NCBI GenBank assembly: GCA_026390815.1
Contig: JAPLFH010000024.1
Coordinates: 1 to 64,000 of the forward strand
DNA: 64,000 nt
Source: Ignavibacteriales bacterium
GTDB lineage: Bacteria > Bacteroidota > Ignavibacteria > Ignavibacteriales > SURF-24
Reading direction: 5' to 3'
Below, in pieces: positions 2,955-63,529 of the stretch. The first letter of the stretch is position 1. Every line of letters begins with the position of its first letter. The notes under the pieces are model-generated. The model ran no database searches and had not been told where the DNA came from. It saw only the letters and a list, made by a program, of their open reading frames with translations. Made by a program: the position numbers and the translations under genes.

Positions 2955-4313
2955 ATGAAGAAAAATTCCAAAATATTAATCTCCGATGATGACGAAACTT
3001 TATGCTATTTGCTAAAAGAAGAACTGATAAACGAAGGCTTTAATGTTGATGCCGTTTATGATGGGAAATATGCAATTGAAAATCTAAGAAATAAAAACTA
3101 CGACCTCCTTCTTCTTGATCTTCAGATGAAAGAAATTGCGGGTGAAGAAGTTTTAAAATTTGCTAATGAAAATTTTCCACTGCTACCAGTAATTATACTA
3201 ACAGCAAAATCCGAAGTACGAAGTGCAATTGATTGCATTAAAATGGGCGCCTACGATTTTGTTTCTAAACCGTATGAATTTGATGAGCTGTTGATAACCA
3301 TTTCGAGAGCTCTAGAACACAAGGACCTGATTGTTAAAAACACAATTCTCTCTACTAAGTTCGATCAAAAGGTAGCTGGCAAAATCATCGGTCAGAGCAA
3401 ACAAATGCAGCATCTGATGAACCTGGCTATTCGTTCTGCAAAATCCGATTCTAATATTCTGCTTGAAGGAGAAACCGGCACAGGTAAAGAATTGCTTGCA
3501 GAATTTATTCATCGCCACTCCGAAAGAAGCGAGAAACCCTTTGTAGTTATTAATTGCGCTTCGCTTCCAGATCAATTAATTGAAAGCGAATTATTCGGAC
3601 ACGAAAAAGGTGCTTTTACAGATGCCAAAACTCCCAAACAGGGATTGGTTGAAATGGCTGATGGTGGGACCCTGTTTCTTGATGAAATTGGAGAAATGAG
3701 CTTGACCCTTCAACCAAAAATATTAAGATTTTTGGAGAATGGAGAGTACCGGAGAGTTGGTGGGGTTACTAATTTGAATTCTAATGTGAGAGTTATTGGC
3801 GCAACAAATAAAAACCTGTTAGAAGAAGCAGAAATAAAATTGTTCCGGAGAGATCTTCTTTTTAGACTGAATGTTATTACACTTACCGTACCTCCGCTAA
3901 GGGAACGCGGAGAAGATATTTCTCTTTTAGCGGAACATTTTCTTAAAGTAAAAACCTCCATTCGCGATCCTAAAAAATTATCTGATTTAGCTGAAAAGGC
4001 GTTGCTTCAATACAAATTTCCGGGCAACGTTAGGGAGCTTGAGCATATTATTGAAAGAGCTATAATTTTTGCAGATGGAAATTTAATTCAACCGGACGAT
4101 CTGAATCTGCCAAGTTCTTATCGTAGTTTATCTATATCAAATGATTCTACAGATGGACCCATTCTTTCGATGGAAGAAATGGAAAAAATTCATATTAAAA
4201 AGGCACTTGGCGCCAATGATTGGAATAGAGAAGATACTGCCCGCGCGCTTGGAATAAGTCAAAAAACTCTTTACTCAAAAATCCTAAAGTTTAATTTACG
4301 CCCTAATGAGTAA
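2955..4313 (+). CDS. NtrC-family sigma-54-dependent response regulator
   Basis: This 452-aa transcription activator has three parts: a receiver (1-120, phosphoacceptor D55, D11-D13 acidic pocket, K in SKPYEFDEL), an AAA+ sigma-54 activation domain (Walker A GETGTGKE at 172-179, the sigma-54-contacting loop GAFTDA at 219-224 in place of GAFTGA, a known variant), and a Fis-type HTH ([16 protein letters not shown]) at the C-terminus. It overlaps the following kinase gene by 8 bp, so the two form a two-component pair. Its receiver closely resembles the stand-alone receiver at 10636-11016. The pilin genes with possible sigma-54 sites are plausible targets, by inference. Confidence 0.95.
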
Positions 4314-6309
4314 ACAAAGTTCACTTGCAAATATTTCTGTTTTCATAGAAGCGCTTAACGCTTTTTCAAAGAATATTACTACTCCGTTTGCCTTTGCAGA
4401 TAGCCAGAAGAAAATTATTTTTTATAACCTTGCGTTTAAAATATTGTTTAATGGAAAAAGAATAAAAGGTAAGAAAGTTGGGTCACTATTTACAATTGAT
4501 GAATTAACCTTAGATTCACAAAAACCTAAAAATAAATCCATTGCAACTAAAGACATAAGTGGAGAAAATGATTTTTTAATCAGTCCTTTTTTTAGTCACG
4601 AAAATAAAATCGGTTATTCCATTTCAGGTTCTTCACACTCAATTGTTCCTAATGATTCTAATAAGAATACTGCGCAAAATAAAATTTTTCTGTTTCAAAA
4701 AGAATGGGAAAACATAATTTCCCTTCTAATCAAAGAAAAATCCCTTGATGACTTAACCATTGAAATATTAATGCGCTGTGTAAATTTATCCGAAAGTTCT
4801 TTCGGCATAACTATTATTAACGATGATAATGCCAGACACCAAATGGAATTTAAATTATATGATGACGATAAATGCGTTAAAAATAGTGCGGGTCTTCTTC
4901 TGGAACTAACTTCTAACTTTAGTTACTTAACGGAATGGTTTAAAATAAACAAAAAGTCAATGGTTGTTAGCCGGGGAGAAAACAACATTATCGGCTATAG
5001 TATTTTTCGGGAAACAAACGTTGAAAGCATTGTAATTCTACCTTGTTTTATAGAAAAGAAAATTTTGGCTGTTCTTATTTTTGCAAAAGCAAAAACAAAT
5101 TACTCCACTTTTGAAATTAATTACCTTGAGCAATTAGCTGCATTGTTTGCTTTTGCAATTAATTCTACAGTTACACAAAAGTTAAATACCGCATTGGAAA
5201 GCAAATTGATTCAATCCCAAAAATTGGAAACAATAGGTAAGCTTGCCAGTGGAATTGCACACGATTTTAATAATTTGCTATCGAGTATTTTTGGAAGTGT
5301 AAATCTCCTAAAGAAAAAACTAACGAATCACGAAGAATTATTCTATCTTTTGGAAAACATAGAAAACTGCTCTGTGCGGGCAACTGACCTTACAAAGGGT
5401 TTACTTAATTATGGTAAACCAACCTCTAGACGTAAAACTCTGATAAAACCAACCGATATATTAAAAGAACTTTTAAGATCGGTTAACCAAACTTTCCCCA
5501 GAAATATTTCAATTGAAAAAAAAATAAGCCCAAATCTTTTTGAAATTATGGGTAACTCAACAGAAATATACCAGGTGCTGTTAAATCTTTGCATCAATGC
5601 CAAAGAAGCCATTATAGGAACAGGTACAATTACTTTAGAAGCAAACAATTTTAGCGTTGATAAAAAGAACCAATTTGAGTTTCCGCTTCTTGAAAAGAGG
5701 AATTATGTTTGTATTTCGGTTGCAGATACTGGCGAAGGTATTAACGAGGAAAATTTATCTAAAATATTTGATCCTTACTTTTCTACGAAGAAGAAGGACA
5801 CGGGCTCCGGGCTTGGTTTATATGTTACTTATGGCATAGTAAAAGCACACAATGGACACATTGATGTTTCAAGTAGTTTAAACAAAGGTACACGCTTTAA
5901 TATTTTCCTTCCGGCTTTTGAAATGCTAAGAAAAGAAGAAAAAGTTAAAACAGAAAAAATAATTCTTCTTGCTGATGATGAAATTATGTTAAGAGATTTG
6001 CTTGCAGAATTACTGGAATCATATGACTATCAGGTTATTTGTGTACAGAACGGTGCAGAAGTTTTAAAAGTTTTAACTGAAGAAATTAAAGTTGATTTAC
6101 TAATTATTGATTACAACATGCCAGAAATGGATGGGATTACTTGCATTAACAAAATAAAAACTCTGGATTTGAAAGTACCAATTATCTTATCCACCGGAAG
6201 CTCATCGGCAAAAGTTGATTTGGAAATTGAAAAATTAGAAGTGGATTCTATACTAACAAAGCCATATGAATTCGAGCAAATGCTGGAAATCGTTCAAAAA
6301 TTAATCTGA
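4306..6309 (+). CDS. Hybrid sensor histidine kinase with C-terminal receiver
   Basis: This 667-aa cytosolic kinase has a divergent PAS-like N-terminus (1-~120), a GAF-like middle (~130-290), a HisKA domain with GKLASGIAHDFNNLL (phosphorylated H319), an HATPase domain (N-box LCINAKEAI, G1 DTGEGI, G2 GSGLGLYVTYGIVKAHNG) and a receiver (D602 in LLIIDYNMPEMDG). No membrane segment or signal peptide is visible, so it senses an internal cue. It is the likely partner of the preceding NtrC-type regulator, with which it overlaps by 8 bp. Its 3' end overlaps the convergent gene at 6301-6981 by 9 bp. Confidence 0.93.
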   Translation: MSKQSSLANISVFIEALNAFSKNITTPFAFADSQKKIIFYNLAFKILFNGKRIKGKKVGSLFTIDELTLDSQKPKNKSIATKDISGENDFLISPFFSHENKIGYSISGSSHSIVPNDSNKNTAQNKIFLFQKEWENIISLLIKEKSLDDLTIEILMRCVNLSESSFGITIINDDNARHQMEFKLYDDDKCVKNSAGLLLELTSNFSYLTEWFKINKKSMVVSRGENNIIGYSIFRETNVESIVILPCFIEKKILAVLIFAKAKTNYSTFEINYLEQLAALFAFAINSTVTQKLNTALESKLIQSQKLETIGKLASGIAHDFNNLLSSIFGSVNLLKKKLTNHEELFYLLENIENCSVRATDLTKGLLNYGKPTSRRKTLIKPTDILKELLRSVNQTFPRNISIEKKISPNLFEIMGNSTEIYQVLLNLCINAKEAIIGTGTITLEANNFSVDKKNQFEFPLLEKRNYVCISVADTGEGINEENLSKIFDPYFSTKKKDTGSGLGLYVTYGIVKAHNGHIDVSSSLNKGTRFNIFLPAFEMLRKEEKVKTEKIILLADDEIMLRDLLAELLESYDYQVICVQNGAEVLKVLTEEIKVDLLIIDYNMPEMDGITCINKIKTLDLKVPIILSTGSSSAKVDLEIEKLEVDSILTKPYEFEQMLEIVQKLI

Positions 6310-6981
6310 CTTTTCAATTTCCTTCTTATCTAAATCCACCATTTGAATATTATTAACATATGGAGAAAAGTTTGGATTTCTTATTGCCCTAAATTTTTCC
6401 AAAACATTATTTATATCCCGCGCAGCAGTTTCTATAAACTCAATTCGTTTTTTAACAGCCTCACGATTTATATCCTCTTTACCAATCTCTCTTCTAATTG
6501 CAGCAGTGCAAAGATTTATTAAAGTTAGTGGTTGTTTAATTTCGTGGTTGGCGGTAACAACAGTAGCTGCAAATGTATTTATCTTCTCCATCTCAATCAG
6601 AAGCTTTGTGGTTTCTCTTAGCTTAAGTGCGGAGTTAATACGTGCAAGCAATTCAATTTTATTTACGGGTTTACGAATGTAATCGAAAGCACCAGCCTGT
6701 AAACCCTCCTTGGTTCCTTCTGCTTCGGCTTTGCCAGTTACAAGAATAACGGGAATATCTTTAGTGCTTTGTGTATTTACTAATGTACGGCAAACTTCAA
6801 GCCCATCAATACCAGGCATCATAATATCAAGTAATACTAAATCGGGATTATCATTAAAAGCCCGCTGCATACCGGTCTTGCCATCATAAGCAGTTATAAC
6901 TTCAAATCCCTCACGCTCCAATCTGTCTTTCAACAGGAAGACACTGTCAGGATGATCATCTATGACTAATATTTTTTTCAT
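6301..6981 (-). CDS. Receiver domain joined to a kinase-less DHp-like histidine domain
   Basis: This 226-aa protein has an intact receiver (residues 1-122; D52 in LLDIMMPGIDG, K104) followed by a helical HisKA-like segment with an H-box at H146 (TANHEIKQPLTLINL). The ATP-binding domain is missing: the frame stops about 80 residues after the histidine. It may act as a phosphotransfer protein, a dimerising response regulator or a competitor for a kinase. It lies at the downstream end of the minus-strand signalling/pilus run, 116 bp after the large hybrid kinase, and overlaps the convergent kinase gene by 9 bp. Confidence 0.85.
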   Translation of the reverse strand: MKKILVIDDHPDSVFLLKDRLEREGFEVITAYDGKTGMQRAFNDNPDLVLLDIMMPGIDGLEVCRTLVNTQSTKDIPVILVTGKAEAEGTKEGLQAGAFDYIRKPVNKIELLARINSALKLRETTKLLIEMEKINTFAATVVTANHEIKQPLTLINLCTAAIRREIGKEDINREAVKKRIEFIETAARDINNVLEKFRAIRNPNFSPYVNNIQMVDLDKKEIEKSD

Positions 6982-7097: not shown

Positions 7098-10000
7098 TCA
7101 AGAATCCAGATGAACCATCAAACCCGATCTGTGAAAAAGAAGCTTGCCTATTTTATTTGCCAGGTCTACTGAATTAACCGGTTTGAGAATCAGATCATCA
7201 AAACCATTACGCATTACAATTTCTTTATCACCAAGCATTGCTTTAGCTGTAAGTGCAAAAACCGGAATACTTTTATAATTCAAATCGGAACGAATTCTTT
7301 TTATAGTTTCAAAGCCATCCATCAAGGGCATCATAATATCAAGAAGAATCAAACCAGGTTTAATTGCGCTTAATGCCGATAAACATTCTAAGCCATTTTT
7401 TGCAAACGCTATATCGCAACCGGTTTCTTTAACAATTTCACCCACCGTAAATAATGTGTCAGCATCATCGTCAACAATTAATATTAAATTTTTCTTTTTA
7501 TCTAAAGCTGGTTTTAAACTTGCTCTATCGCTATTACTAAAATCAGGTTGCGATTCTATCCATATAGCAGATGTATCTACATCTGGCAGTCCTTCTTCAA
7601 GATGTAATCTATCCCTAATTACTTTTAATACATCAAGCGGATAATTTTTAGCGCTGGTAACAGTTTTCTTAACGCCATAACTCAATCTTATAACATCCTC
7701 CTTAGTAAGTTGATCTGATACACTTACACTTACAGGAATGGCTCTAAGAAGAGGGGATTCTTTAATTGAATAAAGCAAATTGAATCCATCGGAAGAAGGA
7801 GATGTAAGATTTATTACAATGTAATCGGGGTGCAGTTGTGCAAGAGAACTTTCAGACTTAAAATCGCTGGGCAGAAAATTAAGTTTAATATTTTTGCCAA
7901 CCATCTGATTTTTTAATTCGCGAGTTTCAAAACTATCGTCATCAACTATAACAACTTTTTCTATTTTTCTGCTGGATAAGTTTTCATACTTTGTAATTGA
8001 GCTTAGAATTTTTTCCTGCAAAAGCGGCTTTTGAAAATACTCGAATACATTAAAACCATAACCGATTTTTGCTTCTTCAAGTATGGCATAAGTAATTATT
8101 GGTATTTGCTCGGTTAGTTTATTGGAGATTAATTGATTGAGAATAGCCCAACTGTTTTCTTTTTGATTTAAGAGATTTAATACAATTGCATATGGTCGTT
8201 TGTTGGTACAATGTTCAGCTGCTTTTTCGCCGGAATCCGCAAACATGATTTCATATTTCTTAGATGATAAATACTCACCAATAAATGATCGATTCTCTTT
8301 TATATCATCAATTATCAGGATAGTTCCGCTATATTTTTCTTCAAATAAGTTAAGGTTAGTTTCTAGCTTTTTTATTGCAACTAATTTTATGGGAATTGTA
8401 AGTTTAAAGATAGAACCTTTCCCTACCTCACTTTCGCAAACAAGTTCGCCCTCAAGAATCTCTGCAAATTTTTTACAGATTGCCAATCCTAAACCAGTAC
8501 CATTATACTTTCTTGTAGAAGAGCCGTCAATCTGTCTGAATTCTTCAAAAATTACCTGAAGGTTTTCCTGGGAAATACCAATTCCGGAATCTATTACTTC
8601 AAATTGAATTTTATCTTCGTTCAACAGTTTACTCTTTAAAACTATAATTCCCTTATCGGAAAATTTCACGGAATTACTTAATAAATTCAAAAGGATCTGC
8701 GAGATTTTTTTTCGGTCAGCGTTTAGAACAATGCTGGTGTTCAGCTCGTTGTGAATTACGAAATTCAAAGCCTTGTTGCGTGTAAGAGGAATGATCTGGG
8801 ATTCAACTTCATCAATTAAATCTTTAAAGCAAAAATCTTCCGGTTCAATCTGCATCTTGCCGGCTTCAATTTTAGAAAAACTTAGAATATCATTTATTAG
8901 ATTAATTAATCGGTTGCCATTCCTCAAAATTACCACAAGCTTTTCTCTATTTGCAGAAGACAAGCTTTTATCGTTTAAAATTAATTCACTTAAACCAAGT
9001 ATTGAATTAAGTGGTGTCTTTAATTCGTGGGACATATTAGCAAGGAATTGAGATTTTAATACGGAAGACTCAATGGCTTTCTCCTTTTGAATATTCAATT
9101 CTTCTGCTTTTTCACTTAACTGTTTGTGCAGCTCTACAAGTTTTTGATTTTGCTCAGAAATTTGTTCGTTCTGTTTCTGATATTCTTCATTAAGCTTTTT
9201 AAGCTCGTTCACAAAATTTTCTAATTGATGGAATGCTGATGAATTACTTAACCCAACTGCAAGCTGCTCTTTAATATTTTCCAGATACTCCTTAACATTA
9301 TCTTTAGGATTGGAAATAGAGGCTAATTCCAGTATTGCTATTACCTTCCGGTTATATAAGATTGGGAAAATCAAAATATATTTTATGTCTAAAGAAAGTA
9401 AGCCGGAACTAAGCTTTGGTAAGTTTTCGTCAAACCGAAATTCAACCGTTTCACCTTTTTCTATAGCGCGCTGGTAAAGGTCAATATTATCTTCATCCTT
9501 AATTAATTCCTTTTGTACACCGTAACTTGAAATCGTTTTAACTTTTCTATCAACTACCAAAGAAAGACGACCTGCGGAAAACTCTATTGACTTTATAATT
9601 TTTGTTAATGCCGCATCGGATACTTCTACAAGTGTTGGATTTTGGTTTATAAGAGTAATAAACTCAGAATATTCATTTAAAGCATTCTCCTTTCTTTCTA
9701 ACTCATCAAGCATATTATTGAAGGCATTACTCAACTTGCCAAGCTCGTCTTTAGATTTAATATTCACTCTTCGTTTAATATCTCCACTTCTTATTTTCTC
9801 TGCTGTTTCACTAAGCTGCCCAATTTGTTTTCTTAACTTTCCAGTAAACAACATAACAAGAATAAGAGACAAGGCAACACCCGGAAGACCAATTATTATT
9901 AACAGGGAATTAATATTCGATCTTAACTCGGCTGCTTCCGGCAGTTTGGAAAAAACAAGAAACTTTATATTTGAGTTGGCTAAATAAAAATCATTTGAAA

Positions 10001-10646
10001 GATAAGATACCGCATAAAAATCCGCACCTTCCAGCTCTTCTTTTGTTATTTCAAAATTGGTTTTGTTATTCAATTCCCTTGATGCATTGATGATATTTAC
10101 ATAGTATTTTTCGTTTTCTGTTTGATTAGAAACTTCCAACGGAATATTATTCAAAACAATAGCAACTTCTGCCCTAATCCGCTTGGATAAATTATCAAGG
10201 AATTCTTTAGAGATTGATTTGCCATAGATAATTTTTTGCCCGCCACCCAAATTAAAACTTTTTATTATAGAATTAGGATTTTTGCTTATGAAGTTTGCAA
10301 GTGATGAAAATTTGGAATCGAAAATGATGGTTGATTTTACGAAATAATAATCGGGGATAATTTCGTCATCACCATTCTGCTTGAACAGAAAATCAATTTT
10401 TTTATCATCCAAATCAACTGGTTTTTGAAAGTTAGAAACTGTTTTTAGGCGAAGAAACTCTTCGTCCATTTCTTGAATGGAGGATTGAAAATCGAAGACG
10501 AAATCGTTAGCAGAATTTAACAGGGTTTTAGAATGCTGTAACGATATTAACTTTTTAGTTAATGAATAAAAAACTAAAGTTGAGCTTGCAAAGATTAAAA
10601 CTACTATTACAAAATTAATTAGTAATATGCGAAAGCTAATCTTCAT
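7098..10646 (-). CDS. Large membrane hybrid histidine kinase with three receiver domains
   Basis: This 1182-aa sensor has these domains in order: TM1 (~8-30), an extracytoplasmic sensor region (~30-240), TM2 (~243-268), HAMP (~270-322), GAF-like domain (~345-480), coiled coil (~485-525), HisKA (H540 in FLANMSHELKTPLNS), HATPase (GTGLGLAI) and three receivers (~770-885, ~893-1010, ~1052-1172). The first two receivers carry Asn at the phosphoacceptor position (N824 in IVLNLL, N946 in IVINLT), whereas the last has D1103 in LLDIMMPLMDG. It overlaps the upstream single-receiver gene by 11 bp and continues the minus-strand run that starts with the pilus genes, so a link to pilus control is likely. 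Confidence 0.93.
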   Translation of the reverse strand: MKISFRILLINFVIVVLIFASSTLVFYSLTKKLISLQHSKTLLNSANDFVFDFQSSIQEMDEEFLRLKTVSNFQKPVDLDDKKIDFLFKQNGDDEIIPDYYFVKSTIIFDSKFSSLANFISKNPNSIIKSFNLGGGQKIIYGKSISKEFLDNLSKRIRAEVAIVLNNIPLEVSNQTENEKYYVNIINASRELNNKTNFEITKEELEGADFYAVSYLSNDFYLANSNIKFLVFSKLPEAAELRSNINSLLIIIGLPGVALSLILVMLFTGKLRKQIGQLSETAEKIRSGDIKRRVNIKSKDELGKLSNAFNNMLDELERKENALNEYSEFITLINQNPTLVEVSDAALTKIIKSIEFSAGRLSLVVDRKVKTISSYGVQKELIKDEDNIDLYQRAIEKGETVEFRFDENLPKLSSGLLSLDIKYILIFPILYNRKVIAILELASISNPKDNVKEYLENIKEQLAVGLSNSSAFHQLENFVNELKKLNEEYQKQNEQISEQNQKLVELHKQLSEKAEELNIQKEKAIESSVLKSQFLANMSHELKTPLNSILGLSELILNDKSLSSANREKLVVILRNGNRLINLINDILSFSKIEAGKMQIEPEDFCFKDLIDEVESQIIPLTRNKALNFVIHNELNTSIVLNADRKKISQILLNLLSNSVKFSDKGIIVLKSKLLNEDKIQFEVIDSGIGISQENLQVIFEEFRQIDGSSTRKYNGTGLGLAICKKFAEILEGELVCESEVGKGSIFKLTIPIKLVAIKKLETNLNLFEEKYSGTILIIDDIKENRSFIGEYLSSKKYEIMFADSGEKAAEHCTNKRPYAIVLNLLNQKENSWAILNQLISNKLTEQIPIITYAILEEAKIGYGFNVFEYFQKPLLQEKILSSITKYENLSSRKIEKVVIVDDDSFETRELKNQMVGKNIKLNFLPSDFKSESSLAQLHPDYIVINLTSPSSDGFNLLYSIKESPLLRAIPVSVSVSDQLTKEDVIRLSYGVKKTVTSAKNYPLDVLKVIRDRLHLEEGLPDVDTSAIWIESQPDFSNSDRASLKPALDKKKNLILIVDDDADTLFTVGEIVKETGCDIAFAKNGLECLSALSAIKPGLILLDIMMPLMDGFETIKRIRSDLNYKSIPVFALTAKAMLGDKEIVMRNGFDDLILKPVNSVDLANKIGKLLFHRSGLMVHLDS

Positions 10647-11016
10647 GTTCTTTTTCTTTTTGGAGGACCTTCCTGATCGTAATTAATAGCTCATCGAGAT
10701 CATACGGTTTACTAATAAAATCATTTGCCCCCATTTTAGCAGAATCGATTGCGCTTTTTACATCTGCATATGCTGTAAGCACAATTACTTTAACGCTCAG
10801 GTTCATTTTCTTTAACATTTGCAATACGTAAAAACCATCCTTGCCTGGCATTTTAAGATCAAGCAGAATCAAATCCACCTGCTTGTTTGAAAGCAACTGT
10901 TTCAAAGCATCGTCAGCATTATAAACAGAGCTTGCGGCATAGCCTACTTCTGTAAGCTCGTCTCTTAAAACAGTGCAAAGATTTACGTCATCATCAACAA
11001 TAAGAATTGATTCCAT
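10636..11016 (-). CDS. Single-domain response regulator (receiver only)
   Basis: The 126-aa protein is a CheY-like receiver with acidic pocket D8-D10, phosphoacceptor D53 (LLDLKMPGKDG), T in VIVLTAYAD and K in ISKPYDLDELL. No output domain follows. It overlaps the kinase gene downstream by 11 bp and follows the secretin gene by 8 bp. Its alpha4-alpha5 face is very like that of the NtrC-type regulator at 2955-4313 (SAID-KMGA-DF-SKPY--DELLITI in both), which hints at shared phosphodonors. Confidence 0.93.
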   Translation of the reverse strand: MESILIVDDDVNLCTVLRDELTEVGYAASSVYNADDALKQLLSNKQVDLILLDLKMPGKDGFYVLQMLKKMNLSVKVIVLTAYADVKSAIDSAKMGANDFISKPYDLDELLITIRKVLQKEKEHED

Positions 11017-11024
11017 TTTATTTC

Positions 11025-12266
11025 CTATTTATCGTTTTCATTTGGCGATAGACTCGATTTGTATAATTTTATTTTCGCCTTATGGCTTTCTATTTCGTCT
11101 TGAATTCTATCTTTATCCTTTGAAGTATAATTGATTCTATCCTTTAACATAGGAAGCAGTTCCACTGAAATCAAAATGACAACTTCTTTTTTGGTAACCG
11201 TTATTTTATCGCTGCCAGTTAAATATCTAATACCAAGCACCCACCAGGGAAGATCTTTTAAGAATGGAATGCCGGTTCTTTCAATTTGCTCATCGTTAAT
11301 GTATAAACCACCAATAATTGTTTCCTCATTATTTAGCATAAGTACTTGCGTGGTGGCATTTGTTCTTTTTATTTCAGTAGAAATTTCTGAGGGAACAGCC
11401 GAACTTCTATCAACCATCAGTTCAAGTAATACATAATCGATTCCATCCTGGTTATAAATATGTGGAGTTACTTCAATGATTGAACCAGTTGAATAAAATT
11501 TATCTATCACGTTACCGGAAAAGTCCCTGGTTTTTATAGAGAAGTCGGAACCAATTTGTATTCTTCCTTTGGTACCATTTCTAACTGCAACGGAAGGGCT
11601 GGCTATAATTTCCCCAAGGTTTTCGGTTTCAAACGCCTTGAACATTGCAGTTGCATCACCAACATAATCGCCAACGTTAAATTTAGAAGTTCCGGAAAGA
11701 TTAAAATCTACTTGTTGCTGCGCTTGCCCCGTGCCTTGAGTTTGGCTTCCGGAAATAAAAGAACGCATGTCTCCGCCAAAACTATAATCCTTATTTGAAA
11801 GGAGGAAAGTCCAGTTTACACCAAGCTGGCGCATTTTACCAACATCTGCTTCAAAGAAAACACAGGATATTTTAACTTCGCGAGTATTAATATCGGCATA
11901 AGTAGCATCCGCTTTCTTTTCTTCTGTTGTGGCTTCCTTTCTCTTAATCACTATTACATCTTCACCTTCATCGGTAGTGTAACCACTGTATTGAACAATG
12001 ATAGCCAGGGCTTTTCTATAAGCCATCTTTTCAATCTGCACACCAATAGGTTTATCGGATGAAACTGTAGAGACTATTTTTTTGCCGGCAGTCTTTTCAC
12101 TTATCTTATTCAAGATTACAATTGCCTGGTCGAACGAAAGATTTTCTGAAAGCGTTACCAATTCATCGGGATTGGTATACTGGCTTAAAGTTTTTTCCAG
12201 TTCTTTTTGAGCATATATTGGTATTGCTGCTGCTATTATTACCAGAAAGATAATTAGCTTTTTCAT
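11025..12266 (-). CDS. pilQ: Short secretin (PilQ/GspD-like outer-membrane channel)
   Basis: This 413-aa protein starts with a signal peptide (residues 1-~20, ending in IYA-Q). A STN/N-type periplasmic domain follows (~35-105; LSFDQAIVILNKI, VQIEKMAYRKALAII), then the secretin core (~130-385) with SPSVAVRNGTKGRIQIGSD, the VTPHI motif and a C-terminal LPWWVLGIRYLTG and VVILISVELLP segment. It is short compared with usual PilQ (about 700 aa) and lacks AMIN domains. It should form the outer-membrane pore of the pilus or secretion machine encoded upstream. It is 1 bp downstream of the PilO-PilP-like gene. Confidence 0.9.
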   Translation of the reverse strand: MKKLIIFLVIIAAAIPIYAQKELEKTLSQYTNPDELVTLSENLSFDQAIVILNKISEKTAGKKIVSTVSSDKPIGVQIEKMAYRKALAIIVQYSGYTTDEGEDVIVIKRKEATTEEKKADATYADINTREVKISCVFFEADVGKMRQLGVNWTFLLSNKDYSFGGDMRSFISGSQTQGTGQAQQQVDFNLSGTSKFNVGDYVGDATAMFKAFETENLGEIIASPSVAVRNGTKGRIQIGSDFSIKTRDFSGNVIDKFYSTGSIIEVTPHIYNQDGIDYVLLELMVDRSSAVPSEISTEIKRTNATTQVLMLNNEETIIGGLYINDEQIERTGIPFLKDLPWWVLGIRYLTGSDKITVTKKEVVILISVELLPMLKDRINYTSKDKDRIQDEIESHKAKIKLYKSSLSPNENDK

Positions 12267-12267
12267 T

Positions 12268-13158
12268 TTATTTTCTCTTCTGAATTTCTTCTTTTTGTAA
12301 TTCCAAATTTACTTTCTCTATTATTCCACCTTTGTTCAAAATAAATGTTACGCTGTTCTTTTCGTAATCAATCTTTGTTAAGTAGCCCAAATAAACCTGG
12401 TCTCCTTCCCAAAGCATAAAAGTATTTCCTTTTGCATCTGCAATAAAAGCTCCATCGGGTACCAATGCAAGAAGTTTAGAACCATTTAATTCAAGCAGTC
12501 CCTCTGTGTTTGGCGGCATTTCATTTCTAATTAGCGGGTAGAAAATATCATAAACTTGTCCGGGTATTAATCTGTTTTCCCTAAAATTTGCTGTAGTAAA
12601 TCTATCGTCGCCGGAGTAATAAACATTAACAATAAAGTTGAAGTTAACGAGGTAGTGCGGCATACCATCTGAATCAAAAAAAGTGTTTGTTGTTAAATTT
12701 CCGGTTTGTATTTTTTTCAATTCTTTACTTTGTTCAATTGCATAAAACAACTTGTAAATATCATTAAACTCGCCCGCACCAGACAATTTGAAAGTAAAGT
12801 AATTAAAATTCTTTTCTTTCTTAGTCTCCACAAATTCAATATCTACATGTGTTTGATCTGAGAAGCTGTAACTTACACCGTTAACAAAATTGTAAAAAGC
12901 TGATTGTAGTAATTGCTGTGGTATGTTAAACTTTCTTTTAGAAATAATTGAATCTAAAACTACCGCCTGTTCTTCAACATCTTTTAAGCGGGTTTTTAAT
13001 TCTTCTGTGTTGTAGCCGCTTTTTTTAAGCTGTTCAAGTTCTTTAGTGTATTTGGTAATTTTTCCTTTTTGATAAACATAGCTGAATAATCCGCCGGCTA
13101 AAACTATTAGCACAAAAATTCCAACTAATCCTAAAGTATTTTTTACTTTGCGGCTCAT
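12268..13158 (-). CDS. PilO-PilP-like fusion, inner-membrane alignment protein
   Basis: The 296-aa product has one N-terminal TM (~8-28), a short coiled coil (~30-70), a PilO-like ferredoxin-fold region (~80-185) and a C-terminal PilP/GspC-like homology region (~215-285; KLLALVPDGAFIADAKGN, then GDQVYLGYLTKIDYEK and LNKGGIIEKVNLEL). PilO and PilP are normally separate members of the alignment complex joining the inner-membrane platform to the secretin. The assignment rests on position between the PilM/N-like gene and the secretin plus domain character, not on a database match. It overlaps the upstream gene by 4 bp. Confidence 0.75.
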   Translation of the reverse strand: MSRKVKNTLGLVGIFVLIVLAGGLFSYVYQKGKITKYTKELEQLKKSGYNTEELKTRLKDVEEQAVVLDSIISKRKFNIPQQLLQSAFYNFVNGVSYSFSDQTHVDIEFVETKKEKNFNYFTFKLSGAGEFNDIYKLFYAIEQSKELKKIQTGNLTTNTFFDSDGMPHYLVNFNFIVNVYYSGDDRFTTANFRENRLIPGQVYDIFYPLIRNEMPPNTEGLLELNGSKLLALVPDGAFIADAKGNTFMLWEGDQVYLGYLTKIDYEKNSVTFILNKGGIIEKVNLELQKEEIQKRK

Positions 13159-14690
13159 TTTTTACCGCCGGATAAATTTAACAAGTCAAATGAAAGTTCA
13201 AATTTGTAAGCTTTACTTGTTCTTAATGGTTCGTATCTAATATTCTTTAATAAAGATGTATTATATGAATCTGCAAATTCTGTAAGCACACTTCTGGATA
13301 ATCCAAAACCGGAAACAGCAACTGTTTTATTTTGATCAACACCAATGGAATTTATCCACATGCTTTTTCTCGATCCAATAAATCGAGCCATATTCTCAGT
13401 CATCTTTCCCCAAACTTCTGCACCGGCGCTGGCGGAATCGAGGATGATCTTGGTTGCATCAAAACTTACAATTCTGTTTTCAAAGTAATTTATTTGACCA
13501 AGGATTTTCTGGTTTTGCCGTTGTATTTCCTTAAGTTCATTTACCTGCCGGGTAAGAATATTAATCTGTTTGTTGTTAGTTAGAATGTGATAAGTAAAGA
13601 ATAAAGCAACAGCAAACAGTATTGGCAATAATATATAGCTATGCCATCCAAACTGGAAAAATTTCTGCTCTTCTTTAACATATCTTGGCAATAAGTTAAT
13701 ACCATGATATGCTTTATTAAGTTCATCGATGTATTCATATGCCGTTGCAATAGGAACACTGAAAGAAGATATTTTACTTTTTTGTGCTTCATCTAATAAA
13801 GAGATGTCAAGATCATCAAACTCCAGGCGGCTAACGTTTGCTTCCGGAAATGTTCCATAGAAAGAGAGAATTAAATTTTCTGAATCATCTTCACCACAAA
13901 GAACAACGTTATCCAATCGAGGGATTCCACCGTTTTCCATCTCGAGAAGTATCTTTGAAAAATACACATCATAGGTATGAAGATTTATTGTACCAACATC
14001 CAGAGTGGTTCCGATGTGTTTAAGTTTCCTTCCATGTAAGAAGATAAGTTTGCTGTACTCTTTACCAATATAAACGATCAGGGAGTAATCATCCGGGAAA
14101 AACTTTTTCTTTTTTGCTACATAATAAGTAAGAGTTATTTCTGCACTCTTAACAGAAGGAATTTTATAATATCTCCTGTTATTATGCTGGGCGAGTGAAT
14201 TGACAAGATTAATACATTGAATCTCACCATCAACAAAAACACTTAAAAGGGAACCACCATCTAACTCTGTAAAGCCGATGTTATCCCTTGGCACAAGCAC
14301 GTTTTTAGATTTTTGAATCTCATCAATTATAGAATCTTGCAGCCTGGAAAGATTTGAGTCTTTTGGTCCTTCATAAACATGATAGTGAATTGCCGGTTCT
14401 GTAATTGCAGGAATGAAATCGCACTTTGTTAATTTAATATCTGACAAAGCAGAGTTAAGTAAGCCTTCGTTAGATATGTTTATTGAACCATCAGTGGCTT
14501 TATCCATATCCATTAACGAGATGTCGTTCGATTCAAAATTTAAATTTGCAACTGCATCTGCCTGCATTGCTTTAGGATGGAAAACATCAAAATCTGCTGT
14601 GCGAAGTAATTGGTACCGGTCCCTTTCTTTGGTAATTACGGCAACCTTAACATCGCTTCCTTCGCAATATATACAAACTAATGGTTTCAT
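13155..14690 (-). CDS. PilM-PilN-like fusion protein
   Basis: This 511-aa protein has an N-terminal actin-like/PilM-type domain (~1-335, with VYIGKEYSKLIFLHG and an IGTTLDVGTINLHTY segment), then one TM helix (~350-372), a coiled coil (~375-405) and a PilN-like periplasmic domain (~410-505; GEVWGKM-like region, WINSIGVDQNKTVAVSGFG). In canonical systems cytoplasmic PilM binds the short N-terminal tail of membrane PilN, and a covalent fusion would make that contact permanent. A 4-bp overlap with the next gene and a 4-bp gap to pilT mark one operon. Confidence 0.78.
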   Translation of the reverse strand: MKPLVCIYCEGSDVKVAVITKERDRYQLLRTADFDVFHPKAMQADAVANLNFESNDISLMDMDKATDGSINISNEGLLNSALSDIKLTKCDFIPAITEPAIHYHVYEGPKDSNLSRLQDSIIDEIQKSKNVLVPRDNIGFTELDGGSLLSVFVDGEIQCINLVNSLAQHNNRRYYKIPSVKSAEITLTYYVAKKKKFFPDDYSLIVYIGKEYSKLIFLHGRKLKHIGTTLDVGTINLHTYDVYFSKILLEMENGGIPRLDNVVLCGEDDSENLILSFYGTFPEANVSRLEFDDLDISLLDEAQKSKISSFSVPIATAYEYIDELNKAYHGINLLPRYVKEEQKFFQFGWHSYILLPILFAVALFFTYHILTNNKQINILTRQVNELKEIQRQNQKILGQINYFENRIVSFDATKIILDSASAGAEVWGKMTENMARFIGSRKSMWINSIGVDQNKTVAVSGFGLSRSVLTEFADSYNTSLLKNIRYEPLRTSKAYKFELSFDLLNLSGGKK

Positions 14691-14694
14691 TTAA

Positions 14695-15921
14695 TTACAC
14701 CGCAGAAAGAATTTGTTGAATTCTTGTTTTACTATTGGCGTACGACATCGCATTTTCCAGAGAAATCTTTTTAGCCATATATAAACGTTTCAGATCCTGT
14801 TCCATTGTCATCATTCCCTGCTGCCCGCCTTGATTTATCATCATATAAATTTCGCCGGTGTTATTGTTTTTTATTGCTGCACGAACACTGGAATTTACCA
14901 CTAAAACTTCTTTTGCCAAAATTCTTTTTCCATCAAGACTTGGTATTAATTTCTGCGAAACTACACACACAAGTACATCGGCAAGCCGGTTCCTAACACG
15001 TTCTTGTTCAGAAGGATGAACTTCTGCAATTATTCTGTCGATAGATTCCACCGCTGAAGAAGTATGCAAAGTTGAAAAAACTTTATGTCCAGTATCTGTA
15101 ACTTCTAAAGCTGCCATAATTGTTTCCGGGTCTCTCATTTCACCAATAATAATAATGTCCGGATCCTGGCGGAGTGATTGTATAACACCTTCCTTAAATG
15201 AAAGCACATCGCGTCCAACTTCTCTGTGCCTTATAATGCAGGTTCTTGATTTATGAACAAACTCGATTGGTGCTGCAATAATAACAACATGTGCAGGATC
15301 GCTATCGTTATGCCAATCCACAATAGCATCCAGTGTAGTCGATTTACCAGAGCCGGTTATTCCGGTAATTAAAGTTAATCCCTGTTTAACAAATGTGTGG
15401 CTTAAAACTTTTAATACATTTGGATTAAATCCAAGTGCATCGATTGAGCGTAAGTTGGAGGAGATTGACCTCATATTTAGTGCAAGCCGGTCAAGATCAA
15501 AATAGGCATCGGCTCTAAATCTTACATCTTCATTTCTTCTTGTATATCTAAATGTATAAGAAAAATCCAGGTTTCTTGTAACGGTTAAATATCTTCTTTG
15601 GTTTTCATTCAACAAATTCAGGATTAATATTCCGGCTTCATCACCAGTAAAAGTTGAAAACTCATCAATTGGTATTTTTTTACCAAATACTCTTAACCAA
15701 ACATTACCATTTGTACCGTAACCACCAAGTTCTATATCGGAAGCATCGCGTTCAATCATTCCAGTCAACAATTTATTCATCATATTTAAAAGAATCATTT
15801 TTTCATTGTCAGATAACTTATTCATATTCTCGATAAGAAAATTTATTCTATCCGGACCAAAGATTGTTGCAGGAATTTTTTCTGCAAAAGCTTTTAAAAT
15901 ATTTTTTGCTTCATCAACCAT
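14695..15921 (-). CDS. pilT: PilT-like retraction ATPase
   Basis: This 408-aa secretion ATPase has Walker A GITGSGKS at 187-194, Asp-box-like and His-box regions, and Walker B DPDIIIIGEMRDPETI followed by TGHKVFSTLHT. The absence of the large GspE N-terminal domain and of the tetracysteine motif places it with PilT rather than PilB. Its N-terminal ~120 residues are somewhat longer than in typical PilT. It would power pilus retraction, which argues for a motile pilus rather than a pure type II secretion system. The next gene upstream in the operon is pilB, 63 bp away. Confidence 0.92.
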   Translation of the reverse strand: MVDEAKNILKAFAEKIPATIFGPDRINFLIENMNKLSDNEKMILLNMMNKLLTGMIERDASDIELGGYGTNGNVWLRVFGKKIPIDEFSTFTGDEAGILILNLLNENQRRYLTVTRNLDFSYTFRYTRRNEDVRFRADAYFDLDRLALNMRSISSNLRSIDALGFNPNVLKVLSHTFVKQGLTLITGITGSGKSTTLDAIVDWHNDSDPAHVVIIAAPIEFVHKSRTCIIRHREVGRDVLSFKEGVIQSLRQDPDIIIIGEMRDPETIMAALEVTDTGHKVFSTLHTSSAVESIDRIIAEVHPSEQERVRNRLADVLVCVVSQKLIPSLDGKRILAKEVLVVNSSVRAAIKNNNTGEIYMMINQGGQQGMMTMEQDLKRLYMAKKISLENAMSYANSKTRIQQILSAV

Positions 15922-15984
15922 TTAACTCTTTAAAACTTAAATCCATTTATAAGTTACCAATAATCGGTTATTAATTATAAAATG

Positions 15985-17772
15985 TTAATCTTCCGTGGTG
16001 CATGCCATCACTTCCTGGATTGATGTTAGTCCTAATACAACTTTCTGGAAACCTGCTTCGCGCAAGTTCAAAGTTCCATCTTTCCTGGATTGCTGGCGTA
16101 TAGCTTCTTCGTCAACTTCAATGCCCGACCGTACGATTATTTCTCTTATTTCTTTTGTAAAGAACAACGCTTCGTGAATTGCCACTCTACCCTTATATCC
16201 GGAATTGCTGCATTTGGGGCAGCCGGCAGCTTCATAAATTTCATAATCTCTCCACTCTGCAATGTTCAAGCCGGCGGATTTCATAAGCGCTTCGTCAAAA
16301 TTACGAATTCTTTTCTTACAATCGCATAATTTTCTTATAAGTCTTTGTGCAACAATTATATTAATTGCATAAGCAATCAAGAACGGTTCAATGCCCATTT
16401 TATACAAGCGGGATACTGCACTGGGTGCATCATTAGTGTGAAGTGTTGAAAAGGTTAAATGCCCAGTGTTAGCTAATTTTATAGCCACCTCAGCAGTTTC
16501 TTTATCGCGCATTTCTCCAACAAGAACTATATCCGGATCGTGACGAAGTATTGACCTGATCGCTTGTTCAAAATTCATCTTATGACCAATCTTTAACTGG
16601 CGTGCACCTTCAATAACATATTCCACCGGGTCTTCAACTGTTAATACGTTTACAGTAGGATCTATAACCTGGTACAGGGCGGCAACAAGCGTTGTGCTTT
16701 TACCGCTTCCGGTAGGACCCGTAAGGATGACCATTCCCTGCGGTCTGTTTATGGCTTTTTCAAAAGATTCTTTAGCATAACCGGTAAGACCAAGTTTGTT
16801 TAAATCCCGGATTACTTTTCTATCATCAAGGATTCTTATTACAATAGATTCAAATTTATTTTTTAGTTCAGTACCTACCATTGGAAGAACAGAAACTCTA
16901 AAACGAATTATATGACCATCGATTTCTCTTTGAATGAAACCATCCTGCGCTTTTTCTCTTTCAAATCGGTCCAAACCTTTTGCCCGGTCTTTAACTACTG
17001 AAATAACTGCTTCTGGCCAAACATTATCCTGCACAAACCACACCTTAAGATCGCCATCAATTCTAAAAGAAACTTCTGTTTTGTTTCCGCTTTTGGGTAC
17101 ATAATGTATATCGCTTGCATTCCTTCTTACGCCCTCAACAAGCGAACCTTCCACCAAACTAATTAAAGCACTTTTATTTATTTCAGCTTCTAAGGCTTCT
17201 TCGTCTAATGAACCTTCCTCAACTTCAATATTTAACTCTTCAGTTTGTTCTTCCATCATTTTTAAAAATTCATTTTCCGGTGGAAGTACAATCTGAATTA
17301 GTTTTTGATAATCTTTTTTTCTTATATAACTTACTTCATATTTTTTAGCATTTAATCCGTAAGCTATTTTTGTAATACTTTTATCGGTTGGGTCGATTGC
17401 AGCAAGAATTAATTTATCTTTTATCCTTTCATCATATTGAAACGGAATTACCTTGTGTTCCAGTATTTGATTTTTAACTTCTTCCGGGGCAATGTTTATC
17501 ATTTTACGGATTTCATCAATTCGGTTATCCGGCAATTCTTCAATTTTAACATTCAATTCTCTAAAAGCATAAAGGATGGCTACTTGCCGGAAGATAGTAT
17601 CATGATCAAAATTATAATCCTGAACAAGAATTTGCGCCAGGTTTCTTTTAATTTTTCCTTCTTCGTTCTGTTTAATGCGCAGAGCCTTCTCAAGAGTTTC
17701 TATGTCAATAATACCTTTCTTTAAAAGAAGATAACCTATTTTGTCGGTCATCTCTAAGTTGGAATCGATCAT
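15985..17772 (-). CDS. pilB: PilB/GspE-like assembly ATPase
   Basis: This 595-aa protein carries an N-terminal GspE-type domain (~1-165), Walker A GPTGSGKS (G352, K358), Walker B DPDIVLVGEMRDKETAEVA and a zinc-binding tetracysteine region (CDC near 483 and CPKC near 520, then SGYKGRVAIHEAL). It is full length for the family. It energises pilin polymerisation at the inner membrane with PilC. It overlaps the upstream pilC gene by 4 bp. Confidence 0.95.
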   Translation of the reverse strand: MIDSNLEMTDKIGYLLLKKGIIDIETLEKALRIKQNEEGKIKRNLAQILVQDYNFDHDTIFRQVAILYAFRELNVKIEELPDNRIDEIRKMINIAPEEVKNQILEHKVIPFQYDERIKDKLILAAIDPTDKSITKIAYGLNAKKYEVSYIRKKDYQKLIQIVLPPENEFLKMMEEQTEELNIEVEEGSLDEEALEAEINKSALISLVEGSLVEGVRRNASDIHYVPKSGNKTEVSFRIDGDLKVWFVQDNVWPEAVISVVKDRAKGLDRFEREKAQDGFIQREIDGHIIRFRVSVLPMVGTELKNKFESIVIRILDDRKVIRDLNKLGLTGYAKESFEKAINRPQGMVILTGPTGSGKSTTLVAALYQVIDPTVNVLTVEDPVEYVIEGARQLKIGHKMNFEQAIRSILRHDPDIVLVGEMRDKETAEVAIKLANTGHLTFSTLHTNDAPSAVSRLYKMGIEPFLIAYAINIIVAQRLIRKLCDCKKRIRNFDEALMKSAGLNIAEWRDYEIYEAAGCPKCSNSGYKGRVAIHEALFFTKEIREIIVRSGIEVDEEAIRQQSRKDGTLNLREAGFQKVVLGLTSIQEVMACTTED

Positions 17773-19145
17773 AGCATAATACCAGATAAATAATTTATTA
17801 AGAATGACATCATTGGATTTTTCGGATTTATTGTTGCTGTTTCTGCTGATATAAGAGTAAGAAGAATCATAACAACCATAATAACCATTGCAATAACAAC
17901 CTGGATAAGCTCAATAACATTTTTTAATCGATATGTAGTTTCGCTTTCATAATAATTTGCTAATTGAAGTGCGGTGTTTTTTATAGTTCCGGTTTCTTCA
18001 CCCGAATGAAATCTGGAAAGTGCTGTAGCTGTAAATACCCCACTCTGTTCAAACGCATCTGTAATACCAATTCCTTTTTTCACCATCATAGGGATTGCAA
18101 TATTTTTTATTCTATCTTCAAAATACGCATTATCTGTTGCTTCTGCAGCTATTCTTATTGGTTCTATGCTTTCTGCCGATCCGCTGTACATTGTATAAAA
18201 TACGCGGCAGAAAACTTCAATTAATGTTTTATGTATTAAGTTTCCAATGATTGGCATTTTTAATAAATACCTGTGTGCAATTAATCTTCCTTTTTTAGTA
18301 GACGCTAACTGCCACAAAATAATTGGTGGAAGTACTGTTGCTGCAATTACCAGCCAAACATTATTTATTAAAAAGTCACTTAGTTTTAATGTAAATGCCG
18401 TCATAGGAGGAAGTGCAATATCAAATTTTGTAAACAACTTGGCAGTCTCTGGAAAAATATATCCCACATAAAAAAGTATTGCCAAAAACAAAACAAACAT
18501 CGTTACCATTGGAGTAATTAATGCACTTCTAAGGCTCTTTTTAAATTCCAATCTTCTTTCTAAAAATTTTGCGGTAGCATGATATATTTCTGTCATGTTT
18601 CCGCTTTTAGAAGCAAGACCAAGCATGTATGCTGTAAACTTACCGAACACTCCCTGGTATCTTAAAAAAATTGTTTCACTATCAGAGCCTTTTTTTAATT
18701 CATTACTAATTTCTTTTAAAGATTCTCTTAATGTTTTGTTGGGTATGTCATTAATAAGTAAAGTCATTACTTCATTATACGGAAGTTTTTGCTCGAGTAA
18801 TTCTGCACTAATTTTTACGTAAGAAACAATTTCCTGCTGTGGTGGTTTGAAATTAAAATCGAGTAGTTTTTTATTAACCGAAAGAACATTGTATCCGAGT
18901 TTATTTAATGCGGTGATAACTTCAGCTTTTGAAAAAGCTTTCTGCTCACCAACAACGGGCTTTTCATTTCCTTTACGAATTTTATATAAATAGACGGATT
19001 TTCTTTCGATAAGTTTAATTTTTAGTTGGTTCTTTTCGGCAAGTTTGTGGATCTTCTTTTTACCTTCACGAGCAGATTCAGAGGTAAGTGATCCACTAAG
19101 TAATTGACCGTTTTGTTTCTCTGCAGAGAATCTTAATTCAATCAT
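17769..19145 (-). CDS. pilC: PilC/GspF-like inner-membrane platform protein
   Basis: The 458-aa product has two GspF-type helical domains and three TM helices (~205-230, ~255-280, ~405-432). The motif LASKSGNMTEIYHATAKFLE and the later FHSGEETGTIKNTALQLANY are the paired GspF repeats. The N-terminal ~110 residues form a small extra domain common at the start of PilC proteins. It anchors the ATPases PilB and PilT to the membrane. Its gene begins ~85 bp after the pilin gene, beyond a likely terminator hairpin. Confidence 0.94.
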   Translation of the reverse strand: MIELRFSAEKQNGQLLSGSLTSESAREGKKKIHKLAEKNQLKIKLIERKSVYLYKIRKGNEKPVVGEQKAFSKAEVITALNKLGYNVLSVNKKLLDFNFKPPQQEIVSYVKISAELLEQKLPYNEVMTLLINDIPNKTLRESLKEISNELKKGSDSETIFLRYQGVFGKFTAYMLGLASKSGNMTEIYHATAKFLERRLEFKKSLRSALITPMVTMFVLFLAILFYVGYIFPETAKLFTKFDIALPPMTAFTLKLSDFLINNVWLVIAATVLPPIILWQLASTKKGRLIAHRYLLKMPIIGNLIHKTLIEVFCRVFYTMYSGSAESIEPIRIAAEATDNAYFEDRIKNIAIPMMVKKGIGITDAFEQSGVFTATALSRFHSGEETGTIKNTALQLANYYESETTYRLKNVIELIQVVIAMVIMVVMILLTLISAETATINPKNPMMSFLINYLSGIML

Positions 19146-19229: not shown

Positions 19230-19631
19230 TTAATTAGAATTTGTAGTGGATGTAACAGAATCTGGGGCTACAACCATTACAACTGATATTGCTCCAGAAC
19301 CATCAAATCCTTTTTCTTTTCCAGTACCAGTAAATGCTATACTTGTTGCGGTACCAGCGGTAGAGATACTATAGGTTCCATTTGGATTGGATTTTAATGA
19401 ATTAGGAATTTTACCAGCAGTAAAACCAACGAATGAATTTCCGCCACCACCCATTGCTAAAGGTTTTCTGTAATATTGCTGTGCCATAGATGCGAGATTT
19501 GTTAAATCGCTTACAACTGCATCGCGGTTTGCATTAGAACTGCTTGCAGTAAAAATGTTAATACCAACTACCACGGCGATACCGACTATAATAACGCCAA
19601 GTACGATAAGTAATAATTGTTGCTGACCCAT
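19230..19631 (-). CDS. Pilin-like protein 1 (MGQQQ type)
   Basis: This 133-aa protein begins MG-QQQ followed by an uninterrupted hydrophobic helix (LLLIVLGVIIVGIAVVVGI, residues 6-24). This layout is that of a type IV pilin with a two-residue leader, but Gln follows the cleavage Gly and there is no Glu at +5. The body has NLASMAQQYYRKPLAMGGGG, shared with the paralogue upstream, and is Gly/Ser/Thr-rich. A good ribosome site (AGGAG) precedes ATG 19631. It sits at the head of the pilus assembly genes and is the likely major subunit. Confidence in 'pilin' comes from position and the N-terminal helix. Confidence 0.75.
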   Translation of the reverse strand: MGQQQLLLIVLGVIIVGIAVVVGINIFTASSSNANRDAVVSDLTNLASMAQQYYRKPLAMGGGGNSFVGFTAGKIPNSLKSNPNGTYSISTAGTATSIAFTGTGKEKGFDGSGAISVVMVVAPDSVTSTTNSN

Positions 19632-19815: not shown

Positions 19816-20196
19816 CTATCGTAAAATTGTTGTGCTAATACTATCTGCAAAAACATTTGTTTGCACTTTTACTGAATCTGTTCCTGTAACCACCTCGTTT
19901 CCTGTTCCAATTATTTCCACATGATCGGGAAATACATTTGCTTCAAACCGTCCATTTGCAGTTAAAGCCAATGGTCTTGGAACTATCCACCCAGAAAAGG
20001 TTTTGCCTCCTCCACCCATCGTTATTGGTTTTAAATAGTGTTGTTGTGCCATACCCGCCAGGTTAATACATTCATTTAATACATTGTTTCTTTTCGATTC
20101 GATAGCATTAGCACGGAAAATATATATGCCAACAAAAATCGCAATCCCCACTATTAAAATTCCTAAAACGATTAATAAAAGCTGTTGCTGACCCAT
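19816..20196 (-). CDS. Pilin-like protein 2 (MGQQQ type)
   Basis: The 126-aa product shares the start MGQQQLLLIVLG with pilin-like protein 1, then a hydrophobic helix to about residue 26 and the segment INLAGMAQQHYLKPITMGGGG. The C-terminal half differs. It is a paralogue that could be a minor or alternative subunit. There is a 184-bp gap to pilin gene 1, so each gene may have its own promoter. Confidence 0.72.
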   Translation of the reverse strand: MGQQQLLLIVLGILIVGIAIFVGIYIFRANAIESKRNNVLNECINLAGMAQQHYLKPITMGGGGKTFSGWIVPRPLALTANGRFEANVFPDHVEIIGTGNEVVTGTDSVKVQTNVFADSISTTILR

Positions 20197-59584: not shown

Positions 59585-59911
59585 CTAATTGATGGAAATT
59601 TCTTTACCGTGTTTTATAATCTCCGAAGCGAAAGGATTTGATTCATCAAAGTCAGCCGTCTCAATCGGGTGAGGTTCAATGCGGGTATCGATTTTTCTTG
59701 TTAAACGCAACAGCACCATTTGCGCTTCAATTAAATCAGGATTCCACTTGGGGGCAATAATAGCTAAATCTATATCGCTATATTCTTTAGGATTTCCTTT
59801 TGCAAATGAACCAAAGAGGTATGCTTTCTCGAAAAAAATATTTTGCGTTTTTAGAAAAAACAAATAGCGTTTGCTTATTTCTATTACTTCATCAATTCCT
59901 GTTTCAGCCAA
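59585..59911 (-). CDS. MNT-type nucleotidyltransferase antitoxin (pair 2)
   Basis: The 108-aa protein has the motif GSFAKG (G34-G39) and catalytic D46-x-D48 with a C-terminal IEPHPIETADFDESNPF block. Known MntA antitoxins add AMP to their HEPN partner. It overlaps the HEPN gene by 28 bp and follows it. It is a homologue of the orphan MNT at 32930-33238, sharing the IEPHP and ESNPF blocks. Confidence 0.9.
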   Translation of the reverse strand: MAETGIDEVIEISKRYLFFLKTQNIFFEKAYLFGSFAKGNPKEYSDIDLAIIAPKWNPDLIEAQMVLLRLTRKIDTRIEPHPIETADFDESNPFASEIIKHGKEISIN

Positions 59912-63231: not shown

Positions 63232-63529
63232 TTCTCAAACTACTGCCAATAATATGATTCAAGGAATCTTTCCAAAATTCAAATTCCTTTTCATCATATA
63301 TCAAAATGTCTTTGGAAATTTTATATTTTGATAATTTTTCTCTGATTCTTTGAATTTCTTTTCTTCTGGATCTTTTCTTTGAGAAAGGACTTTTTTCAAT
63401 AATCAACAAATCAATGTCAGAATTTTCATTTTCTTCACCTCTGGCAAAAGAACCAAAAAGAATTATTTTCTCGGGTTTTGCTTCGCTGACGATATCTTCA
63501 ACAATATTTTTTAATGTTTCCGAATACAT
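63206..63529 (-). CDS. MNT-type nucleotidyltransferase antitoxin (pair 1)
   Basis: The 107-aa product has GSFARG (G26-G31) and catalytic D38-x-D40 (NSDIDLLII). It comes before its HEPN partner, the reverse of pair 2, and begins 20 bp after the gyrB stop. The C-terminal half lacks the IEPHP and ESNPF blocks of the other two MNT proteins, so it is a different subfamily. Confidence 0.9.
   Translation of the reverse strand: MYSETLKNIVEDIVSEAKPEKIILFGSFARGEENENSDIDLLIIEKSPFSKKRSRRKEIQRIREKLSKYKISKDILIYDEKEFEFWKDSLNHIIGSSLRNGKILYER

Follow-up and report, generated by a model that had tools for sequence, protein, structure and literature searches.

How could a type IV pilus machine that is encoded with so few subunits, and with no prepilin peptidase gene beside it, obtain mature pilins? 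The question is raised by a window of 64,000 nucleotides, the whole stretch of DNA analysed here (positions 1 to 64,000 of contig JAPLFH010000024.1, assembly GCA_026390815.1), from an Ignavibacteriales bacterium. Six open reading frames on the minus strand, at 11025–19145, encode a GspF/PilC protein of 458 aa, a PilB of 595 aa, a PilT of 408 aa, two proteins of 511 and 296 aa, and a secretin of 413 aa, all as listed by the initial annotation. The other operon features described below are likewise on the minus strand.

Type IV filaments share a polytopic inner-membrane platform protein and an assembly ATPase of the PilB/GspE family. The former is present as PilC/GspF (17769–19145; PF00482, 1.6e-29) and the latter as a PilB-type ATPase (15985–17772; PF00437, 1.1e-101), whose best NCBIfam model is TIGR02538 (PilB) at 412 bits, under the equivalog cut-off. 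Residues 11–45 of PilB (window 17638–17742) gave a weak, sub-cut-off match to the MshE-type c-di-GMP-binding motif (E 0.005), and control of extension by c-di-GMP through this N-terminus is possible. The adjacent ATPase (14695–15921) had been read as PilT, and this reading holds, as the protein exceeds the curated cut-off of TIGR01420 (321.1 bits against 319.1). PilB and PilT of this operon are the only two T2SSE ATPases in the genome, which rules out a second type IV filament system. The channel is of the PilQ type expected of a type IVa pilus (11025–12266; PF00263, 1.4e-22, residues 211–370), its best PDB match being PilQ (7.6e-14), while the NCBIfam PilQ model was reached only under its cut-off. 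The secretin is short and consists of a signal sequence, an N0-like domain and the channel domain; by eye, the window protein runs from N0 over a short linker into the channel. Among 16 secretin homologues, the STN/N0 domain was detected in three and Secretin_N, the usual N1 domain, in none. Secretins of 626–664 aa were found in one distant family.

Neither the 511-aa nor the 296-aa protein is recognised by Pfam or NCBIfam, so that fold and profile searches were needed, for which alignments of 20 homologues each were used. In the predicted model of the 511-aa protein, the closest fold for residues 1–333 (13692–14690) is PilM of the PilM–PilN structure 2ych (2ych_A, Z 23.7; 5eou_B, Z 23.6; Foldseek E 1.5e-14 to PilM), with scores above those of FtsA (Z about 20) and MreB. 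The sequence GINLLP follows at the junction, where INLLP (residues 331–335, 13686–13700, from the sequence and the homologue alignment) corresponds to the tail by which PilN attaches to PilM in solved PilM–PilN complexes. The second half (13155–13700) is predicted to hold a membrane helix, a coiled coil and a ferredoxin-like domain, with a helix at 350–440 followed by beta-beta-alpha-beta-beta, and the homologue profile matched Myxococcus PilN (3jc8_Na, E 1.9e-4) over residues 375–480. The VIA-align lists for this model were occupied by the actin-like half; for the PilN half the evidence is therefore the match by profile, the junction motif and the secondary structure of the model. Homologues of the protein form a single open frame without internal stops in 57 of 59 related genomes, and this comparison across the clade, which the initial annotation had called for, excludes a gene-model artefact. 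The 511-aa protein is PilM joined to PilN.

The neighbouring gene (12268–13158) encodes a complete PilO–PilP fusion of 296 aa, which is one frame in relatives as well and directly follows the 511-aa frame in every operon-bearing related locus that was extracted. Structure comparison of the predicted model placed first PilO and then PilP on the chain. After an N-terminal membrane helix and a coiled coil, residues 80–183 (12610–12921) match PilO (2rjz_A, Z 10.1, rmsd 2.6; Foldseek 7.6e-4), and residues 213–288 (12295–12522) match PilP (2y4y_D, Z 8.9) and the HR domain of GspC (3oss_C, Z 8.0, rmsd 1.6). The 296-aa protein is PilO joined to PilP, and both fusions proposed at the outset are thereby borne out. 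The four domains of the type IVa alignment subcomplex, PilM, PilN, PilO and PilP, are all present, as two fusions. The stoichiometry of PilM to PilN and of PilO to PilP in the alignment complex is debated; the two fusions imply that both are 1:1.

We searched homologues of the machine genes in the 59 related genomes and in a sample of 296 genomes spanning the phylum, where a profile search found PilMN homologues in 98. The gene order in relatives is pilin(s)–pilC–pilB–pilT–pilMN–pilOP–secretin–response regulator–hybrid kinase, frequently with aspS upstream, and distant classes retain the core order from pilC to the secretin, in some cases with inserted genes. PilC and a partial PilB of another Ignavibacteriales genome (L230) are 86–88% identical to those of the window, and PilB, PilC and PilT of a genome labelled Melioribacter roseus (L233) are 68–76% identical. 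The last two genes of the conserved cluster, a receiver-domain response regulator (10636–11016) and a large hybrid histidine kinase (7098–10646), hold the same positions in most related loci. Two-component genes densely flank the operon (window 2955–6981 and 7098–11016), as an NtrC-like regulator with a kinase, a separate regulator, and then the receiver protein and hybrid kinase of the operon. In two single-contig genomes, machine genes are split by sequencing error or decay: PilC lies in three frames in G020 (L047:3675–4640), where the second pilin is also broken, and the secretin in two frames in G034 (L068:2081–3380). Elsewhere in the window, two small nucleotidyltransferase/HEPN-like gene pairs (59585–60276 and 62821–63529) and a HipA-like pair (1139–2437) are, by eye, probable toxin–antitoxin modules.

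The first two genes of the operon, immediately upstream of pilC, encode pilins that begin MGQQQLLLIVLG.... These are leaderless pilin 1 (133 aa, MGQQQLLLIVLGVIIVGIAVVVGIN..., 19230–19631), which is probably the major pilin, and leaderless pilin 2 (126 aa, MGQQQLLLIVLGILIVG..., 19816–20196). The initial annotation had found no minor pilin set in the window; this has to be revised, since the two operon pilins adjoin, on the upstream side, the interval that it covered. The second pilin of the operon is a candidate minor pilin, as are two more pilin-like frames at other sites in the genome. One extra pilin-like gene, MGTQQLLYIVLAVIIIAIAIL... (L259:3156–3539, own-genome contig G000:C46), lies far from the operon and directly precedes genes for an ECF-type sigma factor and a zinc-finger-type anti-sigma-like protein. 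We also observed the pilin head, with a GGGG-type loop, fused to other proteins (L260:2830–3492, own-genome contig G000:C17; also L261, L264 and L271), among them a DUF4190-like membrane protein and a lipoprotein-like protein that carries the head twice; apparently the head is a mobile module.

The pilins are conserved at their N-terminal end. Among 239 distinct pilins, collected by a profile search with some added through a pattern scan that biases the MGQQQ count upward, 235 have Gly at position 2 and three have Ala; Lys and Arg are absent from the first ten residues in 237, and positions 3–12, where Glu5 would fall, hold no acidic residue in 238. The hydrophobic N-terminal helix aligns with solved type IV pilins (geopilin, PilE1, PilA5 and GspG) in one register, with weak scores (E 0.1–1.4), such that pilin residue 9 falls on mature residue 6 and Gln4 on Phe1; the encoded proteins begin at, or immediately beside, the site at which prepilin peptidase would cut. 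The head of four of 23 members matched the ComP-type minor pilin family (ComP_DUS in Pfam, best 9.4e-5), and hhalign against the canonical pilins of relatives gave E 0.027 at 1.8% probability. Sequence alone would not suffice to call the MGQQQ proteins pilins; the assignment is strong because they stand beside pilC and there is no other pilin candidate. No canonical prepilin (N_methyl, PF07963) passed the cut-off in the genome, and one sub-threshold match (C18) was rejected as a 63-aa membrane protein that continues into a second hydrophobic stretch and has no pilin head.

A leader might be hidden upstream if the start codons had been misassigned, and an alternative upstream start does occur in five of 82 pilin genes. 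In the other 77, the stretch from the upstream stop to the MGQQQ-type start holds no alternative start. The open lengths upstream vary from 0 to 67 codons. Both window pilins are among the 77: from ATG, GTG or TTG no leader is possible, as an in-frame stop stands 9 codons before the ATG of pilin 1, all of them non-start codons, and a TAA stop stands directly before the ATG of pilin 2. A misassigned start is thus refuted for both window pilins, short of initiation at a non-standard codon, and as a general account we find it barely credible.

The absence of a leader is accompanied by the absence of the enzyme that would remove it. The initial annotation saw no prepilin peptidase gene in the window and suggested looking for pilD elsewhere in the genome; none was found genome-wide. 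The Pfam search for Peptidase_A24 was negative in this 99.96%-complete genome and positive in 12 of 14 control genomes, and a second profile, made from A24 enzymes of the phylum itself, was negative as well; neither profile found a prepilin peptidase elsewhere in the genome. Among the 59 related genomes, A24 exceeded the cut-off in four and 55 were without it; in the phylum sample, nine of the 98 pilus-bearing genomes had a match. Among those that lack A24 are Melioribacter roseus, Salinibacter altiplanensis, Fodinibius roseus, members of Kryptonia and three single-chromosome assemblies, while A24 is present in most of the checked genomes of Calditrichota, KSB1, Zixibacteria and Cloacimonadota. 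Across the phylum, the pilus and A24 show no significant negative association (Fisher p 0.15); the peptidase is rare in the phylum anyway, so that its absence cannot be linked statistically to the pilus.

N_methyl prepilins exceeded the cut-off in three related genomes, all of them among the four with A24 (Fisher p 1.2e-4), and in the fourth A24 lies on a short contig. Where it could be traced, A24 adjoins a second GspE-like ATPase at a separate locus and not the pilus operon, and in most cases leader-bearing prepilins of the FSLTEL/FTLIEL type cluster with it (L071–L073, L114–L116). These loci represent a second GspE/secretin/GspL-like system with an A24 of its own, which occurs in a few relatives and in distant classes. 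Leader and peptidase are present or absent as a pair, and the MGQQQ pilins are leaderless in either case, which is a natural internal control.

Processing by another route was also considered, in which a peptidase outside the A24 family, or an A24 enzyme diverged beyond detection, would trim a Met-Gly or Met-Gly-Gln end. Searches reveal detectable relatives only, and the Gly at position 2 is reminiscent of the one that stands at −1 in canonical leaders. One to three residues at most could be removed in this way, however, and the phylum-derived profile found no A24 although control genomes were positive in the Pfam search. Methionine aminopeptidase accepts Gly or Ala at position 2, and the residues found there suit this enzyme. 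We regard trimming by such a peptidase as unlikely; the sole trimming is probably that by methionine aminopeptidase.

How widely do such pilins occur? A degenerate-codon scan for MGQQQLLL returned at least 119 loci, and among the matches listed, 105 of 119 have a pilin-like frame, mostly beside PilC/PilB. The remaining listed matches come from unrelated bacteria such as Shewanella and Paenibacillus and mostly lie in frames of 8–32 residues, which is what chance would give. True MGQQQ pilins, among the matches listed, occur in Ignavibacteria, Kryptonia, Rhodothermia, Balneolales, Calditrichota, KSB1, Neomarinimicrobiota, Zixibacteria and Cloacimonadota. We consider it likely that a leaderless branch extends across Bacteroidota outside Bacteroidia and into Calditrichota, KSB1, Zixibacteria, Neomarinimicrobiota and Cloacimonadota, with the peptidase also dispensed with in most pilus-bearing Bacteroidota. 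Its pilins would be encoded ready-mature, with the initiator Met alone removed, and processing would thus be no intrinsic requirement of type IV filament assembly.

The same distribution bears on whether the locus could be a degenerate, non-functional remnant that lost pilA and pilD. The genome paper of Melioribacter judged the pilus set of M. roseus incomplete, as it reported pilT, pilQ, pilB and pilC and neither pilA nor pilD (PMC3534657). The genome labelled M. roseus nevertheless holds two MGQQQ pilins beside PilC (L233); the set was read as incomplete because its pilA is present but leaderless and pilD is not found. Moreover, strong conservation of the operon and of the pilin N-terminus extends over classes and phyla, and decay is a very improbable explanation.

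Taken together, the operon very probably encodes an extension and retraction machine derived from the type IV pilus, with six machine proteins (PilC, PilB, PilT, PilMN, PilOP and the secretin) and leaderless pilins made ready-mature. We propose that the pilin is translated as fMet-Gly-Gln-Gln-Gln with the hydrophobic helix next, and that deformylase and methionine aminopeptidase would take off the fMet since residue 2 is Gly; cleavage of a leader would then be unnecessary and N-methylation of the PilD type absent. The helix would insert with its N-terminus inside and its C-terminus outside, anchoring the pilin in the inner membrane, although the N-terminus carries no positive charge, which makes this insertion less obvious and counts against the proposal. 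PilB would drive PilC to feed pilins into the filament and PilT would reverse the feeding, giving retraction, while PilM–PilN and PilO–PilP may act as 1:1 alignment subunits from cytoplasm to periplasm. Docking of the PilP domain is expected at the N0 domain of the short secretin, which would serve as the exit for the filament. The machine may serve adhesion, twitching or DNA uptake. ComEC was considered as a hint of DNA uptake and proved uninformative, as it is found in 39 of 39 genomes, including one without the pilus.

Alternatively, the machine could be a pseudopilus similar to that of type II secretion, or a device of the envelope that forms no long filament, for which processing would be unnecessary. 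The type II protein GspL joins an actin-like domain to a PilN-like membrane and periplasmic part and is the natural counterpart of PilM–PilN, and the PilP half matches GspC HR, while GspM and GspC of type II secretion are separate proteins. On the other hand, a PilT above the PilT/PilU cut-off is present here, PilB and the secretin score nearer to PilB/PilQ than to GspE/GspD, and class III pseudopilins of the GspG–K type are absent (no PF07963 over the cut-off in the genome). Pseudopilins of type II secretion likewise need leader cleavage. We hold a pseudopilus or a device of this sort to be quite improbable, and retain the reading as a machine derived from the type IV pilus.

Removal of the leader by prepilin peptidase has been counted among the conserved features by which type IV filaments are united (PMC4471445). 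Two of the four features that define these filaments, a leader-bearing prepilin and an A24 peptidase, are lacking here, so we describe the machine as a leaderless variant derived from the type IV pilus and not as a standard member. A step regarded as universal in type IV filaments has apparently been given up by an entire group of bacteria, and our literature search, which had subscription papers mostly outside its reach, found no description of leaderless pilins. Leader-based searches are blind to these pilins, and pilus loci in these bacteria are read as incomplete because such searches miss them. If our reading is true, a conserved pilus that lacks the step would reveal which part of it matters: leader removal, N-methylation, Glu5, or no more than a free end in the correct position. 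One can then test directly whether a canonical pilus is able to run without PilD once its pilin gene begins at the mature end.

The machine is closest in plan to the type IVa pilus of Myxococcus xanthus and Pseudomonas aeruginosa (PilBCTMNOPQ), with which it shares homologues of PilB, PilC, PilT, PilM, PilN, PilO and PilP, the PilQ channel, the M-N-O-P-Q order and the hydrophobic N-terminal helix of the pilin. It differs in that PilM–PilN and PilO–PilP are fused, the secretin has no detected AMIN or N1 domain, the pilins lack both a leader peptide and Glu5, and the genome has no prepilin peptidase. MSHA loci, too, come without a prepilin peptidase of their own and probably borrow one (PMC6668835). 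In MSHA genomes the peptidase is supplied by another system, whereas the present genome has no A24 and no other T2SSE ATPase, and its pilins would need no peptidase. The missing peptidase and the leaderless pilins, which the initial annotation had not connected, are the more surprising feature of the locus. The condensed machine with the two fusions, as it had described it, is real, but calling it unusual is only partly right: each fusion has published precedents elsewhere, and the two alone are modest news. In Campylobacterota type IV pili, pilM and pilN are one fused gene in a pilMNOPQ cluster, and the source describes neither a PilO–PilP fusion nor leaderless pilins (PMC11870540). Pseudomonas putida has PilO and PilP in one chain (Q88CU9), given as one of a few cases (PMC3169554), whereas here conservation of the PilO–PilP fusion extends through the order and outside it, alongside that of the PilM–PilN fusion.
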